Source: Candidatus Gemmiger excrementavium (lineage in GTDB: Bacteria > Bacillota > Clostridia > Oscillospirales > Ruminococcaceae). Taken from it: a DNA stretch of 33,573 nucleotides. Numbering within the stretch: the stretch's first letter is position 1; each line of letters begins with the position of its first letter. Below are positions 3,809 through 9,098 of the stretch, one piece after another. Location: assembly GCA_019116485.1 (NCBI GenBank), contig DXBO01000076.1, positions 1 through 33,573 on the forward strand. The letters are read 5' to 3'. The position numbers and the translations under genes were made by a program. Below the pieces are notes generated by a model. It was given only the letters and a program-made list of their open reading frames with translations. It had not been told where the DNA came from and made no database searches.

Positions 3809-3866
3809 TATATATGTATGACTGTAACCAAAATTGGGACGTACCAGGGCGACAGGAGTTAAGCAA

Positions 3867-4667
3867 ATGATCGATTTTCAGCATGTTTCCAAAACCTATG
3901 AGACCCACAACGACGAAAATGTGGCGCTCGAGGATATCAATATCCATATTGATGAAGGGGAGTTCGTCTTTATCCTGGGCCATTCCGGCGCGGGTAAATC
4001 CACCTTCCTCAAGCTGATCCAAATGGAGGAAAAACCCACCAAAGGCAAGGTGTTTATCAACGGCCAGGACCTTACCAAGATGAAGCGCCGCAAGGTGCCC
4101 TACCTGCGCCGCCAGATGGGCGTGGTGTTCCAGGACTTCCGCCTGATCCCCACCATGACCGTCTACGAGAATGTGGCCTTTGCCATGCGGGTAACCAATA
4201 TCTCCACCAAGAAGATCAAGGCCCGTGTACCCTACGCGCTTTCTCTGGTGGGCCTGGGGGACAAGATGCAGCGCCTGCCGGACGAACTTTCCGGTGGTGA
4301 GCAGCAGCGTGTGGCGGTGGCCCGTGCCCTGGCTCACGGCCCCAAGATCATCATCGCGGACGAGCCCACCGGTAACATCGACCCCGAGATGTCGATGGAC
4401 ATCATGCAGCTGTTTGAGGCTATCAATAAGGTGAACATCACAGTGGTGGTGGTCACCCACGAGCACGAGCTGGTCCATCAGCTGGCCTCCAAGTACAACA
4501 ACCGCGTTATCACCCTGTCGGACGGCATGGTGGCCTCTGACACGGCCCACCCCGAGGTGGCCCGCCGCTACGCCGCCAAGATGGCTGCCCGCCAGCGGGA
4601 AGAATACGACGGGGACGATGAGTACGACGAGGAATACGATGAGGACGAAGCCTACATCGACGACTGA
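3867..4667 (+). CDS. ftsE: Cell-division ABC ATPase FtsE
   Basis: A 266-residue cytoplasmic ATPase that pairs with FtsX to turn on peptidoglycan hydrolysis at the septum or side wall. Visible motifs are Walker A GHSGAGKST (38-46), Q-loop VVFQDFRLIP (~87-95), signature LSGGEQQRVAVARAL (141-155), Walker B IIIADEPTGN (161-170) and the switch histidine H198. The start at 3867 follows CAGGAG; an upstream TTG extension is unlikely. Residues 245-266 form an unusually acidic tail (REEYDGDDEYDEEYDEDEA) beyond the ~225-residue norm of FtsE. ftsX begins 17 nt downstream. Confidence 0.96.
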   Translation: MIDFQHVSKTYETHNDENVALEDINIHIDEGEFVFILGHSGAGKSTFLKLIQMEEKPTKGKVFINGQDLTKMKRRKVPYLRRQMGVVFQDFRLIPTMTVYENVAFAMRVTNISTKKIKARVPYALSLVGLGDKMQRLPDELSGGEQQRVAVARALAHGPKIIIADEPTGNIDPEMSMDIMQLFEAINKVNITVVVVTHEHELVHQLASKYNNRVITLSDGMVASDTAHPEVARRYAAKMAARQREEYDGDDEYDEEYDEDEAYIDD

Positions 4668-4683
4668 TTGAAGAGGGGATACC

Positions 4684-5589
4684 ATGCGCTTTTCCAGCTT
4701 TACTTATCTGGTCGGGCAGGGCCTGCACAATCTGCGGGCCAACCGGCTCATGACCTTTGCCTCCATGGGCGTACTGACCGTCTGCATGCTGCTCATCGGC
4801 TGTGCTTACCTGCTGGGCGTCAACATCGACGCCATGGTGGAGTACATCGGTGACCAGAACGAAACCATCGTTTACATGCGCGAGGACGCCACCGAGGATC
4901 AGATCGCCGCTGCGGATGCCGCCATCCGCAACACCGAGCATGTGGTGGGGGTGACCTATGTCTCACCCCAGGAAGTACTCTCCATCTATGACGGCATGCT
5001 GGAGGATTATATCGATCTGGAGGCTGCCTTCTCCAGTGATAATCCGTTTTTGCCCAACTACCGCGTGGTGATGGACAGTCCCGACAACATCCCGGCGGTG
5101 TCCACCCAGCTGGAGCAGATCGACGGCGTGGACAAAGTCCGGGCGCCTATTGAGCTGTCCAGCACCTTTATGTCGCTGCAGCAGGCCATTACCTATGCCT
5201 GTTATGCGGTGGTGGCGGTGCTGGCCATCGTCAGTATCGTGGTCATCAACAACACCATCAAGATCACCGTCTTCAACCGCCGCAAGGAGATCGGCATTAT
5301 GAAACTGGTGGGCGCCACCAACGGCTTCATCCGCTTCCCCTTCTTTGTGGAGGGTGTCACCTCCGGCCTTATCGCTGCGGCTATTTCCTCCGGCGTGGTC
5401 TGCGGCGCTTACTATGCCCTGACCGTCTGGTATGCCGAAAACCCCAGCAACCTTTCCCAGCTGTTGGGGGGCCAGCTGGTGCCGCTGATCGATGTGTGGT
5501 ATTACCTGGTGGGCGGCTTTGTGCTGCTGGGCTTTGTGCTGTGCGGTATCGGCACCGCCACCAGCATCCGCAAGCATCTGAATGTGTAA
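4684..5589 (+). CDS. ftsX: Cell-division permease-like protein FtsX
   Basis: A 301-residue FtsX. An N-terminal cytoplasmic stretch is followed by a first membrane helix at ~22-42. A large extracellular loop covers ~43-165 and starts NIDAMVEYIGDQNETIVYMRED. Three further helices come at ~170-192, ~220-245 and ~270-293. The cytoplasmic segment NRRKEIGIMKLVGATNGFIRFPFFVEG (~198-224) is the family signature. FtsX does not transport. It transmits FtsE ATP cycling to an extracellular coiled-coil hydrolase, encoded immediately downstream here. A GAGGGG ribosome site precedes the ATG, and the stop overlaps an alternative upstream start of the next gene. Confidence 0.96.
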   Translation: MRFSSFTYLVGQGLHNLRANRLMTFASMGVLTVCMLLIGCAYLLGVNIDAMVEYIGDQNETIVYMREDATEDQIAAADAAIRNTEHVVGVTYVSPQEVLSIYDGMLEDYIDLEAAFSSDNPFLPNYRVVMDSPDNIPAVSTQLEQIDGVDKVRAPIELSSTFMSLQQAITYACYAVVAVLAIVSIVVINNTIKITVFNRRKEIGIMKLVGATNGFIRFPFFVEGVTSGLIAAAISSGVVCGAYYALTVWYAENPSNLSQLLGGQLVPLIDVWYYLVGGFVLLGFVLCGIGTATSIRKHLNV

Positions 5590-5608
5590 AAGAACGGGTA
5601 ACAGGAAC

Positions 5609-6823
5609 ATGAAAATTTCGCCTACCATCAAAAAAATCATTTCCATGGTACTGGCCGTGTCCATGGCGGTGACGCTGACTGTCTCCACCAGCACAGCCAC
5701 CCTGGCTGACGACAAGAAAAGCGAACTGCAGGCCCAGAAAGAGCAGGCTCAGCAGCAGCTGGACGCCATCCAGGAAAAGATCAAGCAGAACCAGGCCAAC
5801 AAAGAAAATGCCGAGGACCTGAAAGAGCAGTACGAAGCCCAGACCGAAGTGGTCAAGGAAAAGATCAGCATCGTACAGCAGTACATCGCCCAGGTCCAGC
5901 AGGACATCGTCACCAAGGAACAGGAAATCGAGCAAAAGCAGAAAGAAGTGGACCAGAAGCAGGCCGAGTATGACGAGCGCTGGGCCGGCTTCAAGGAGCG
6001 TCTGCGGGCCATGCAGATGCTCAACGACGGCGGTTCTATCGCCCTGCTTTCCAGCGCGACCAACCTTTACCAGCTGCTGACCTTTGCCGATACCCTGGAA
6101 CAGATCTCCAGCAAGGACGAGGAAATCTGCCGCGAGATCGAGGCTGAGCGCGTGGCGCTGGAACAGCAGCGCACCGAACTGGAAAACGCCAAGGCGGAAC
6201 TGGAGGCCAACCAGGCGGAACTGGAAGCCCAGAACGCCGAGCTGGATGGCCTGCGCTCCGATCTGGCCGCCAGCATCCAGCAGCAGGACGCTACCATCTC
6301 GGCTGCGGATGCCCAGGCTGAGGCCCTGGCAGCCGAGGAAGAGGAAGCCCGCAAGAACCTGGATAAGGCTGCCGCCGAACTGGATGCCTACCTCAACGCC
6401 CAGGTGGACAAGTACAGCGACGCAGCCCTGACCTGTTCGCTGAATTTCGGTCCGGCCTTGCCCAGCTACAAGTACATTTCCTGTGTGTTCGGCACCGGCG
6501 GGCATCGCGGCACCGATTTTGCGGCGCCCGGCGGCACGGCCATCTACGCCGTGGCGGACGGCATCGTCACCGACGCCACCTACCATTACAGCTGGGGCAA
6601 CTATGTGCAGATCTATCACGGCAAAGATGATGAAGGAAATACCTATTCTACTTTGTATGCCCATATGGTCAGCGCGCCTTCTGTCAGTGCAGGGCAGAAC
6701 GTCACTAAGGGGCAGGTCATTGGCTATGTGGGTAATACCGGGTATTCCTTCGGTAACCACCTGCATCTGGAAATGAAGATCAACGGCGTGCTGGTCAACG
6801 CCGCCAACTGGATTCCGCACTGA
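5609..6823 (+). CDS. Secreted coiled-coil M23 peptidoglycan hydrolase, FtsEX partner
   Basis: A 404-residue exported protein. The signal peptide is residues 1-33 (MKISPTIKK, hydrophobic core, cleavage near TLA-DD). A long Gln/Glu/Lys-rich coiled coil with heptad-like repeats runs over ~35-275. A C-terminal M23/LytM domain follows at ~280-404. Zinc ligands and catalytic residues are intact: HRGTD gives H299 and D303, and HLHLEM gives H384 and H386. This matches the EnvC/PcsB/CwlO architectural class that docks on FtsX. Unlike EnvC, which lacks the ligands, this protein should itself cleave stem-peptide cross-bridges. The ATG at 5609 is chosen because it gives a clean signal peptide; an ATG at 5582 overlaps the ftsX stop. 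Confidence 0.9.
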   Translation: MKISPTIKKIISMVLAVSMAVTLTVSTSTATLADDKKSELQAQKEQAQQQLDAIQEKIKQNQANKENAEDLKEQYEAQTEVVKEKISIVQQYIAQVQQDIVTKEQEIEQKQKEVDQKQAEYDERWAGFKERLRAMQMLNDGGSIALLSSATNLYQLLTFADTLEQISSKDEEICREIEAERVALEQQRTELENAKAELEANQAELEAQNAELDGLRSDLAASIQQQDATISAADAQAEALAAEEEEARKNLDKAAAELDAYLNAQVDKYSDAALTCSLNFGPALPSYKYISCVFGTGGHRGTDFAAPGGTAIYAVADGIVTDATYHYSWGNYVQIYHGKDDEGNTYSTLYAHMVSAPSVSAGQNVTKGQVIGYVGNTGYSFGNHLHLEMKINGVLVNAANWIPH

Positions 6824-6843: not shown

Positions 6844-6951
6844 ATGAAAAACCATAAAACCGCTGTGCGCATCTTCTGCCTTGTGTTTGCAGCCATGATG
6901 GTGCTGAGCCTGTTCAGCACGCTGATCTTCGCCCTGTCTTACGCCGCGTAA
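6844..6951 (+). CDS. 35-residue single-span membrane protein
   Basis: A short frame beginning MKNHKTAVRIF, with one hydrophobic segment from about residue 10 to 34 and a basic N terminus. This predicts a single-pass membrane peptide with a cytoplasmic N terminus, or an uncleaved signal anchor. The ribosome site GGGGGAGGGAG lies 6-10 nt upstream of the ATG. It sits 20 nt after the M23 hydrolase and 33 nt before the S41 homologue, on the same strand, so it is almost certainly in the ftsEX operon. No family is recognised. Position suggests a small accessory of the FtsEX-hydrolase complex, which is inference only. Confidence 0.7.
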   Translation: MKNHKTAVRIFCLVFAAMMVLSLFSTLIFALSYAA

Positions 6952-6984: not shown

Positions 6985-8199
6985 ATGAGCAAAAAAATCA
7001 GTCTTGGCGTAGCCGCCACTATCGCGCTGATCGCTATGGCGGTCACCTTTTCGTTGACCATGGTCATCTCTATGAACATGTTCAACTCCACCGTGTCCAG
7101 CGTAAAAAACCGGGAACGGCAGTACAACAAACTGGCCGAGATAGACCGCTTCGTGCGCGGCAATGAATACTTTACCATCAACGAGGACACTCTCAGTGAT
7201 ACCATTGCCGCGGGCTACATGCTGGGCATCAGCGACAAATATGCCAAATACTACACCGCCAAGGCTTACAGCGAACTGCAGGCGGTGGAATCCGGCAAGC
7301 TGACCGGTATTGGCGTGGCCGTGGTCAACGATGCATCCTCCGGTTATGCGCGAATCATCCGCGTGTACGACAATTCCCCGGCCAGCGAGGCCGGCCTCCA
7401 GGTGGGCGGCTTTATCACCGCCATCGGCCAGGTGTCCACCAAGACCCTGGGCGATACCGCCTCCATTACTTCGGCGCTGCTGGGGGAGGAAGGCACCACT
7501 ACCACCATTACCTACCTGACCCCTGACCGGCAGGAACAAACGCTGGACCTGGTGCACTCCAACTACCGCACGCCTTCCCTTTCTTATGAGATGACAGCGG
7601 GCAGCTGCGGTTACATTCGCATTGATGCTTTCACTGCCACCACTGGCACCGAATTCAAGACGGCGGTAGATAGCTTGCTCAAGCAGGAGGCTTCCTGCCT
7701 GGTCTTTGACCTGCGGGACAACAGCGGCGACAACCTGAACGCTGCGCTGGTGGCGGCAGACTACTGCCTGCCCGCGGGCTTGATCGCCCAGCAGGAGGAT
7801 AAGGATGGCAACATCACCGACCTGCGTATGTCTGACGAAACAGCCATCGGCGTGCCCATGGTGTGTCTGGTCAACGGCAGCACGGCGGGTGGCGCAGAAC
7901 TGTTTGCCAACGCACTGCGCAAAATGGGCGGCGCCACGCTGGTGGGCACCACCACCGCAGGCAAGGGCGTGGTCATGAGCGAAGCCCAGAGTTTCTCGGA
8001 TGGTTCGGCGGCCTATATCACCATTGGCCTGCTGCTGGATAACGAGGGCCAGACCTGGAACGACGTGGGACTGACCCCTGACCAGGATGCAGCCCTGAGC
8101 GCCGACGAACAGAGTGCTTACTATGACTTTACCATCGAGACCGACCCCCAGATCAGCAAGGCGGTCAACGCGGCCATGTCGTTGGCCGGCCAGAGCTGA
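6985..8199 (+). CDS. Membrane-anchored S41 (CtpA/Prc) protease homologue, probably inactive
   Basis: A 404-residue C-terminal-processing-peptidase homologue. One N-terminal membrane helix (~5-30) is followed by the cap region EYFTINEDTL...KYAKYYTAKAY (~61-95), a PDZ domain (~105-180, GIGVAVV, NSPASEAGL) and the S41 core (~195-360, LVFDLRDNSGD, MVCLVNGSTAGGAELFANAL, VGTTTAGKGVV). In active members the serine lies three residues before the conserved Glu of this motif and 25 residues before the lysine (Prc S430/K455, CtpB S309/K334/Q338). Here these positions are G302 (GGT at 7888-7890), K327 and M331. Only the lysine remains, so this looks like a PDZ-bearing pseudoprotease. It is the fifth gene of the ftsEX block. 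Confidence 0.88.
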   Translation: MSKKISLGVAATIALIAMAVTFSLTMVISMNMFNSTVSSVKNRERQYNKLAEIDRFVRGNEYFTINEDTLSDTIAAGYMLGISDKYAKYYTAKAYSELQAVESGKLTGIGVAVVNDASSGYARIIRVYDNSPASEAGLQVGGFITAIGQVSTKTLGDTASITSALLGEEGTTTTITYLTPDRQEQTLDLVHSNYRTPSLSYEMTAGSCGYIRIDAFTATTGTEFKTAVDSLLKQEASCLVFDLRDNSGDNLNAALVAADYCLPAGLIAQQEDKDGNITDLRMSDETAIGVPMVCLVNGSTAGGAELFANALRKMGGATLVGTTTAGKGVVMSEAQSFSDGSAAYITIGLLLDNEGQTWNDVGLTPDQDAALSADEQSAYYDFTIETDPQISKAVNAAMSLAGQS

Positions 8200-8222: not shown

Positions 8223-9098
8223 GTGCCCACACTGACTGACCTGTCCACCATCCGCGATTTGTGCGCGCGGTATGATTTTTCCCTGTCCAAGGGATTCGGA
8301 CAGAATTTTATCATCAATCCGGGCATTTGCCCCCGTATCGCCGAAGCCTCCGGCCTCGGTCCCGGCTGGGGCGCCCTGGAGATTGGTCCCGGCATCGGGG
8401 TACTCACCGAGCAGCTCTGCCGCCGTGCCGACAAGGTGGTTTCCATCGAAGTGGACCATCGTCTGCCCCCGCTGCTGGCCGAGACTATGGCCGGATATGA
8501 CAATTTCAAGCTGGTGCTTAATGATGTACTCAAGGTGGACCTGAAAGGCCTGCTGGCCCAGGAATTTGGCGATAAACCAGTGGCGGTTTGCGCCAACCTG
8601 CCCTATTACATCACCAGCCCCATCCTGATGCGCCTGCTGGAGGAAAAACTGCCCATCCAGAACATCACGGTCATGGTGCAGAAAGAAGCCGCCCAGCGGC
8701 TGTGCGCAGCCCCCGGCACCCGGGAAGCGGGCGCTATCAGTTATGCGGTGGCCTATTATGCCCAACCCAAGTTGTTGTTTACTGTGCAGCCGGGCAGCTT
8801 TTACCCGGCCCCCAGCGTAACCAGTGCGGTGATCCGGCTGGATGTACGGCCTCAGCCGCCGGTACAACTGCCGCCGGAACAGGAAAAGGCGTTTTTTGCG
8901 CTGATCCGAGCGGCTTTTTCCCAGCGGCGCAAGACGGCTGCCAACGCCATTGCCAATGGGCTAAGCCTGCCCAAAGCAAAGGTACTGGCGGCGTTGGAAG
9001 CCGCGGGCCTGGACCAGCGTGCCCGCCCCGAACAGCTGACGCTGGAGCAATATGCCGCTTTGCAAAGGGCGTTGCAATCCATTGACAACAGGACCTGA
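8223..9098 (+). CDS. rsmA: 16S rRNA (adenine1518/1519-N6)-dimethyltransferase KsgA/RsmA
   Basis: A 291-residue Rossmann methyltransferase that dimethylates two adjacent adenosines in the 3' hairpin of 16S rRNA late in 30S assembly. The N-terminal FSLSKGFGQNFIIN (~19-32), SAM motif I LEIGPGIGVLTEQL (~52-65), and the N6-adenine catalytic motif NLPYYITSP (125-133) are all typical. The C-terminal helical domain includes SFYPAPSVTSAVIRL. The start is GTG at 8223, preceded by GGAAAGGAAG at good spacing. It follows the S41 gene by 23 nt and ends 25 nt before the tRNA; a promoter for the tRNA is embedded in its last codons. Confidence 0.96.
   Translation: MPTLTDLSTIRDLCARYDFSLSKGFGQNFIINPGICPRIAEASGLGPGWGALEIGPGIGVLTEQLCRRADKVVSIEVDHRLPPLLAETMAGYDNFKLVLNDVLKVDLKGLLAQEFGDKPVAVCANLPYYITSPILMRLLEEKLPIQNITVMVQKEAAQRLCAAPGTREAGAISYAVAYYAQPKLLFTVQPGSFYPAPSVTSAVIRLDVRPQPPVQLPPEQEKAFFALIRAAFSQRRKTAANAIANGLSLPKAKVLAALEAAGLDQRARPEQLTLEQYAALQRALQSIDNRT

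Follow-up and report, generated by a model that had tools for sequence, protein, structure and literature searches.

What could keep a protease gene intact in an operon once its catalytic serine has been replaced? The window, by which we mean the whole stretch of 33,573 nucleotides analysed here (Candidatus Gemmiger excrementavium, contig DXBO01000076.1), raises this question with a gene of the S41 family of C-terminal processing peptidases (CTPs), located at 6985..8199 behind ftsE, ftsX and the gene of an M23 peptidoglycan hydrolase. All features of the window described below lie on the forward strand.

The S41 frame starts with an ATG at 6985, stops at 8199 and encodes 404 residues with zero internal stops, so that the undamaged frame over 404 codons described in the first-pass annotation is borne out by translation. 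The encoded protein begins with a helix, which is followed by a PDZ domain and by a complete S41 core. Profile searches gave 117 bits for Peptidase_S41 (PF03572; cut-off 24), and the PDZ domain (residues about 104-192; 7294..7560) was recognised by PDZ_2 at residues 108-183 and by PDZ_6 at residues 124-171, the latter with 27.4 bits, barely above its cut-off of 27. The score obtained with TIGR00225 (prc, C-terminal processing peptidase) was 163.4 bits, below the curated cut-off of 218.6. The AlphaFold model (pLDDT 87.8, 68 sequences) has the CTP fold with a single N-terminal helix at residues 7-60, and a Foldseek search with this model placed CtpA (E 5.5e-29) and CtpB (E 2.0e-27) among the best matches. 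By its fold the protein belongs to S41; by its active site it is predicted to be no active CTP. It is the single PF03572 match in its genome, which is 94% complete, and its nearest named relative is found in Gemmiger formicilis An723 (88% identity), so that the first-pass annotation was correct in looking for relatives among the Oscillospiraceae.

Residue 302, Lys327 and Met331 align without gaps to Pseudomonas aeruginosa CtpA (7rqh, 7rpq) and to the algal D1 protease (1fc6), and Gly302 (codon GGT, 7888..7890) therefore occupies the nucleophile column, with Lys327 (7963..7965) retained at the general-base column and Met331 (7975..7977) at the Gln column. The column spacing of 25/29 is that of the triad S302/K327/Q331 of P. 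aeruginosa CtpA, as given in excerpts of PMC11021448, and also matches S300/K325/Q329 of Helicobacter pylori CtpA, as given in a PDB title. Spacing and ungapped alignments thus confirm where the first-pass annotation had placed the three residues. A further replacement affects the conserved NPGG turn, the second Gly of which is Asp249 in the window protein (7729..7731); the first turn Gly (G248) and the G110 loop are retained in Gemmiger S41. According to the same excerpts (PMC11021448), P. aeruginosa CtpA becomes inactive in vivo with either S302A or K327A, whereas Q331A impairs the processing of one substrate slightly and that of another more clearly. The losses of Ser and of Gln had initially been given equal weight; in view of these effects, it is the loss of Ser that carries the argument for a pseudoprotease. 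S299 was considered as a substitute nucleophile and rejected, its column being variable, with Ser in 47% of 30 sequences. To judge from the sequence, Ser-Lys catalysis is almost certainly lost in the window protein.

Ser is replaced throughout the clade of the window, to which the name Gemmiger refers in all our counts; database records bearing that name form more than one group. PF03572 matches were obtained in 32 of the 35 genomes of the genus, two of the matching genomes having no locus assigned, and all 30 loci read lack Ser at the nucleophile column, which is Gly in 27, Ala in 2 and Gln in 1; their Gln column is occupied by Leu or Met. Ser is likewise absent from the 31 distinct sequences of the clade, which group together in the tree with a support of 100; the Lys column is kept in 25 of them and replaced in 6, and Gln is found in none (0/31). 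This uniformity, over 30/30 loci and 31/31 clade sequences, excludes chance or assembly error and supports the pseudoprotease proposed at first, with some doubt on full inactivity because Lys327 is retained in those 25 sequences. Next to this clade stand a small clade with Gln in place of Lys (support 86) and then Faecalibacterium, nearly all members of which encode Ser-Lys-Gln. The first-pass annotation had allowed that orthologues with the Ser might reveal the copy in the window as a sporadic mutant: sister genera do have the Ser, but its loss is clade-wide and recurrent. Five loci named Gemmiger (L187, L190, L192, L194 and L195) fall outside the clade of the window and encode Ser-Lys-Gln; L189, which also bears the name and likewise falls outside, belongs with L188 to a sister clade of Gemmiger with Ser retained and Gln at the Lys column, a state that may represent a step towards inactivity.

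We also looked for another active CTP in Gemmiger and found none in the window's genome, which has no second PF03572 match. Extra S41 proteins are encoded in 7 other genomes of the genus; 5 of them align well, with Ala at the Lys column, 1 is a weak match and 1 gave no match. The second, larger S41 proteins of some Gemmiger genomes (L281, L283-L286; frames of 602-1716 residues) combine Ser with Ala at the position of the CTP Lys and represent another S41 type.

How often Ser was replaced was then read across the family, the order and the class. The family set comprises 297 genomes, of which 259 have a match and 38 have none; S41 was read in 96 of the 259 (30 + 80 loci, 14 overlapping), to which we added the best 80 of 265 named relatives, partly repeating the 96 and reaching down to matches of about E 1e-66. 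The order sample (40 loci of 133 matching genomes; 48 S41 frames, 37 with Ser and 11 without) and the class sample (20 loci of 181 matching genomes, from 16 families) were taken higher-scoring first, which biases their frequencies. The 152 distinct sequences of the family set divide into 96 with Ser and 56 without, 4 of the latter having Cys. Of the 220 aligned rows, 63 lack both Ser and Cys at the nucleophile column and are referred to here as dead. Parsimony requires 15 changes of Ser state on the 152-row family tree and 17 on a 197-row tree that omits 23 near-duplicate rows and takes its root from the 20 genes sampled outside the order, both trees being quick IQ-TREE runs with active-site columns excluded and with SH-aLRT support only. 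Counting Cys as active gives 14 changes on the full tree, and collapsing weak branches at thresholds of 50, 80, 90 and 95 leaves minima of 16, 15, 14 and 9. Parsimony has no power to separate gain from loss of Ser, but loss is the natural direction because Ser-Lys-Gln is encoded by all 20 S41 genes read outside the order, which come from 16 families and of which 15 have ftsX-M23 upstream. Ser has therefore been lost many separate times in the operon S41, with about 14-17 changes and at least 9 after strict collapsing; dead examples include Ruthenibacterium, Pygmaiobacter, a Fournierella and one Faecalibacterium. That catalysis seems to have been lost about a dozen times or more and the gene kept argues that the main job of the operon S41 is not cutting, and suggests a protein that holds or steers its partners.

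In simple counts, Lys is kept in 38 of the 63 dead rows versus 150 of the 153 Ser rows, and the second turn Gly in 26/63 versus 149/153 (26 of the 32 dead rows outside Gemmiger). Joint loss of Lys or of the second Gly with Ser was non-significant on independent tree pairs, so these counts give at most a hint of co-loss. Two loci (L235, L256) keep Ser and Lys and have Ile at the Gln column. An S41-like match in a genome of the same class (G608:C1:144026-144982) lies within an open frame of 13850 residues.

The gene order indicates in which context the protein may act. ftsE (3867..4667), encoding the ABC ATPase of the FtsEX complex, scored 278.2 bits with TIGR02673 FtsE (cut-off 264.85) on a translation starting at 3873, its start having been picked by eye in the open reading frame 3834-4667. 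It is followed by ftsX (4684..5589), encoding the permease-like subunit with an extracellular domain (NF038347 FtsX_Gpos, 227.4 bits for a cut-off of 225; FtsX_ECD and FtsX), and by the M23 (LytM) hydrolase gene (5582..6823; Peptidase_M23, 94.3 bits), which overlaps the ftsX stop and whose product begins with a long N-terminal part that looks by eye like a signal peptide and a coiled coil. Its active-site residues are H308, D312, H361, H393 and H395, and all five are intact in the 140 rows with an M23 match (the window being counted twice; 13 further rows have no match), so that none of these rows couples loss of the M23 active site to loss of the S41 Ser. Downstream of the S41 gene and outside the module, a gene kept in part of the loci (8223..9098) is, as we presume from its translation, rsmA/ksgA.

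Between the M23 and S41 genes, a 35-residue single-pass membrane microprotein is encoded at 6844..6951, with zero matches in Pfam or NCBIfam and with a similar small open reading frame at the same place in relatives. Microproteins of about 33-37 residues occur in the Gemmiger, Faecalibacterium and Fournierella loci with a readable gap, be the S41 protein dead or active, whereas the loci of Ruthenibacterium and Pygmaiobacter showed none. Their consensus was built from 75 loosely picked sequences, and a loose scan, which includes M23 tails of other groups, found a small membrane open reading frame in 82 of 151 family loci.

Of the 52 non-Ser rows, 45 have the complete series ftsE-ftsX-M23-S41, as do 82 of the 95 Ser rows; the remainder are mostly cut by contig ends, with 4 Ser rows in which S41 stands alone. 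In this comparison an M23 match is absent from 2 non-Ser and 5 Ser rows. Four loci whose region is complete have no M23 frame between ftsX and S41, and S41 directly follows ftsX: L163 (a dead Gemmiger locus), L088 (also dead), and L200 and L218, both with Ser. S41 thus remains behind ftsX where M23 is missing, and FtsX, more than M23, appears to be the constant companion; as the direct partner of the S41 protein, FtsX is more likely than M23. The binding of the M23 tail envisaged in the first-pass annotation is not favoured, since the C-terminal residues of M23, compared by eye, differ between clades and have no common end, and since the intervening M23 gene is missing from two dead loci, L163 and L088. 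FtsX was present in all 13 genomes tested among the 38 family genomes without an S41 match (one FtsX match being partial at a contig edge), so that FtsEX can do without the S41 protein in those genomes.

If the S41 protein docks on a membrane partner, its N-terminal helix is the candidate surface. The putative transmembrane part of this helix (residues about 7-33; 7003..7083), assigned to the membrane by eye within the AlphaFold helix, contains the motif AMxVTFSxTM. In the dead family rows outside Gemmiger, the 11-residue segment from residue 16 (IAMTVTFSxTM) is the most conserved stretch of the protein, ranking 1 of 391 segments and again first in three subsamples (about 366 segments). The same segment ranks 11 of 391 in Gemmiger. 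In the family's 96 rows with Ser it ranks 41 of 391, and the cytoplasmic stub that precedes the helix ranks 4th to 15th there. Among the 20 genes sampled outside the order it is poorly conserved, with a rank of 370 of 391, the best segment of the whole N-terminus ranking 318 of 366 and the overall conservation being similar to that of the other sets (0.53 versus 0.56-0.61). A bare anchor would be expected to drift, and we therefore read the conserved helix as a putative binding surface that would have been present before the losses of Ser. The pattern is confined to the family of the window: in the 11 dead rows from other families of the order, the helix ranks 153 of 391.

Taking these observations together, we incline, with slightly better than even confidence, to the view that the window S41 is a dead CTP which, no longer catalytic, has been kept as a partner of the FtsEX-M23 hydrolase module on the outer side of the membrane in which it is anchored, a role suggested by gene order and conservation. 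The scaffold or substrate-capture function first proposed is compatible with the data and could now be narrowed to that of an FtsEX partner acting through the conserved membrane helix. The proposed course would begin in Clostridia with a CTP often encoded right behind ftsE-ftsX-M23, as gene order and intact triads indicate; because P. aeruginosa CTPs degrade cell-wall hydrolases (the case of CtpA in excerpts of PMC11021448 and PMC8764530), such an active CTP may be a regulator of the hydrolase encoded next to it, which it would presumably trim or degrade. In the window's family, the N-terminal stub and transmembrane helix would then have become the conserved surface seen in our rankings, to which FtsX, the 35-residue microprotein or another membrane partner may bind. 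Finally, the protein might use its CTP fold and PDZ domain as a scaffold or regulator on FtsEX, proteolysis becoming dispensable and Ser being lost repeatedly, with Gln and the second turn Gly also lost in Gemmiger. Our confidence in this FtsEX partnership is lowered by the unconserved helix in dead rows of other families and by the two dead loci without M23; the variability of M23 in Gemmiger, the persistence of FtsX where S41 is missing, the non-significant joint loss of Lys with Ser and the fact that gene order is the sole tie also count against it. Were the FtsEX part true, the protein would represent a new way in which gut bacteria regulate cell-wall hydrolysis, and one would have to ask whether a structural role of active CTPs elsewhere has been overlooked.

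A dead copy together with an active one is seen in one family (f10), in which 9 genomes were searched and 8 gave a match. All 8 carry two S41 genes in line, placed behind M23 in the 7 genomes whose contig extends there. The first copy is dead in 8/8 (Gly or Asp for Ser, with Lys lost in 7/8) and the second encodes Ser-Lys-Gln in 8/8. The dead copies cluster with the order's operon S41 (support 99) and the active copies form a separate deep clade (support 100); these two clades indicate one pairing kept across the family and not eight events. We also advance a broader and more tentative proposal, to which we give somewhat less than even credence: that the CTP gene of the clostridial FtsEX-M23 operon repeatedly became a non-catalytic, helix-docked component of the hydrolase machine, a counterpart of SweC/SweD made from a dead protease, and that one family kept a dead copy as scaffold alongside an active copy as protease. 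Dead and active members form many independent pairs, which would allow scaffold and protease roles to be separated directly.

The side-by-side copies of f10 also agree with a substrate-capturing or dominant-negative subunit, the PDZ domain and tunnel of which would bind C-terminal tails and protect or present them, whether the subunit acts by itself or joins an active S41 in mixed rings; in Gemmiger, the PDZ domain, the G110 loop and G248 are indeed kept. The window's genome, however, has one PF03572 match, and the 5 well-aligned extra S41 proteins of the genus have Ala at the Lys column, which makes mixed rings unlikely in Gemmiger, and the M23 C-terminal ends vary between clades. We regard such a subunit as rather unlikely.

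It is less likely still, and in our opinion improbable, that the fold has been reused for ligand binding unrelated to FtsEX. The model for such reuse is IRBP (retinol binding protein 3, RBP3), a soluble vertebrate retinoid carrier in which S41 repeats serve without proteolysis. IRBP matches the window protein by sequence (9frx, E 5.5e-22), and its non-enzymatic role is a precedent for S41 binding proteins; it has no known link to FtsEX, unlike the window S41 with its ftsEX gene order. The position behind ftsX, common to dead and active members alike, and the conserved transmembrane helix argue against this explanation. The partnership with FtsEX that we prefer has parallels of its own. iRhoms and the CspC/CspA proteins of Clostridioides difficile, of the rhomboid and subtilisin-like families respectively and thus of other protease families than S41, are dead proteases kept as regulators or signal receivers. 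The SweC/SweD proteins of Bacillus (PMC6705773) and the FtsEX-RipC co-factors of Corynebacterineae (PMC6705760) are membrane proteins serving FtsEX-hydrolase complexes, and the passages of these two articles that describe them make no mention of an S41 domain. For SweCD, a membrane complex with FtsX is shown in the same passages (PMC6705773), whereas for the window S41 such a complex would be predicted from gene order and conservation. With P. aeruginosa CtpA (which acts with LbcA), Bacillus subtilis CtpB and H. pylori CtpA, the window protein has the fold, the PDZ domain, the Lys column and the triad spacing in common; it differs from CtpA and CtpB by the replacement of Ser, Gln and the second turn Gly, by the conserved membrane helix and ftsEX-M23 gene order, and by its sub-cut-off TIGR00225 score. 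Judged by titles, the literature searched gave no link between FtsEX and a CTP. Dead proteases as regulators and non-proteolytic S41 folds (IRBP) are known already.

Proteolysis through another nucleophile, T300 in the window protein or Cys in a few relatives, is very improbable. The column of T300 is Thr in 62 of the 63 dead rows, K327 is kept, and four relatives (L085, L127, L130 and L137) have Cys at the Ser column. Yet the column of T300 also has a hydroxyl residue in every one of the 153 Ser-bearing rows (Thr in 108, Ser in 45) and so looks structural, which disfavours T300 as the nucleophile; the residues replacing Ser among relatives are diverse (Gly, Ala, Asp, Asn, Arg, Gln, Phe, Tyr), and the S302A replacement in P. 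aeruginosa CtpA (excerpts of PMC11021448) leaves no activity in vivo. L085 also has His at the Lys column, and a change into a cysteine-type enzyme is conceivable there.

That the gene is a relic under relaxed selection, heading for loss, as the 38 of 297 family genomes without a match might suggest, is scarcely credible, since the median dN/dS of Gemmiger S41 (0.267 over 322 pairs, identity 0.697, from pairs with dS 0.1-1.2 only) is not above that of Ser-bearing Faecalibacterium (0.318, identity 0.704) and the frames are long clade-wide. The dead Gemmiger S41 has stayed under purifying selection, and the initial description of a maintained gene is well supported. For comparison, dN/dS of Gemmiger FtsX is 0.288. 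The conservation of M23 is lower in Gemmiger (0.516) than in Faecalibacterium (0.641). The S41 frames comprise at least 401 residues in all members of the clade but one, which is cut by a contig end.
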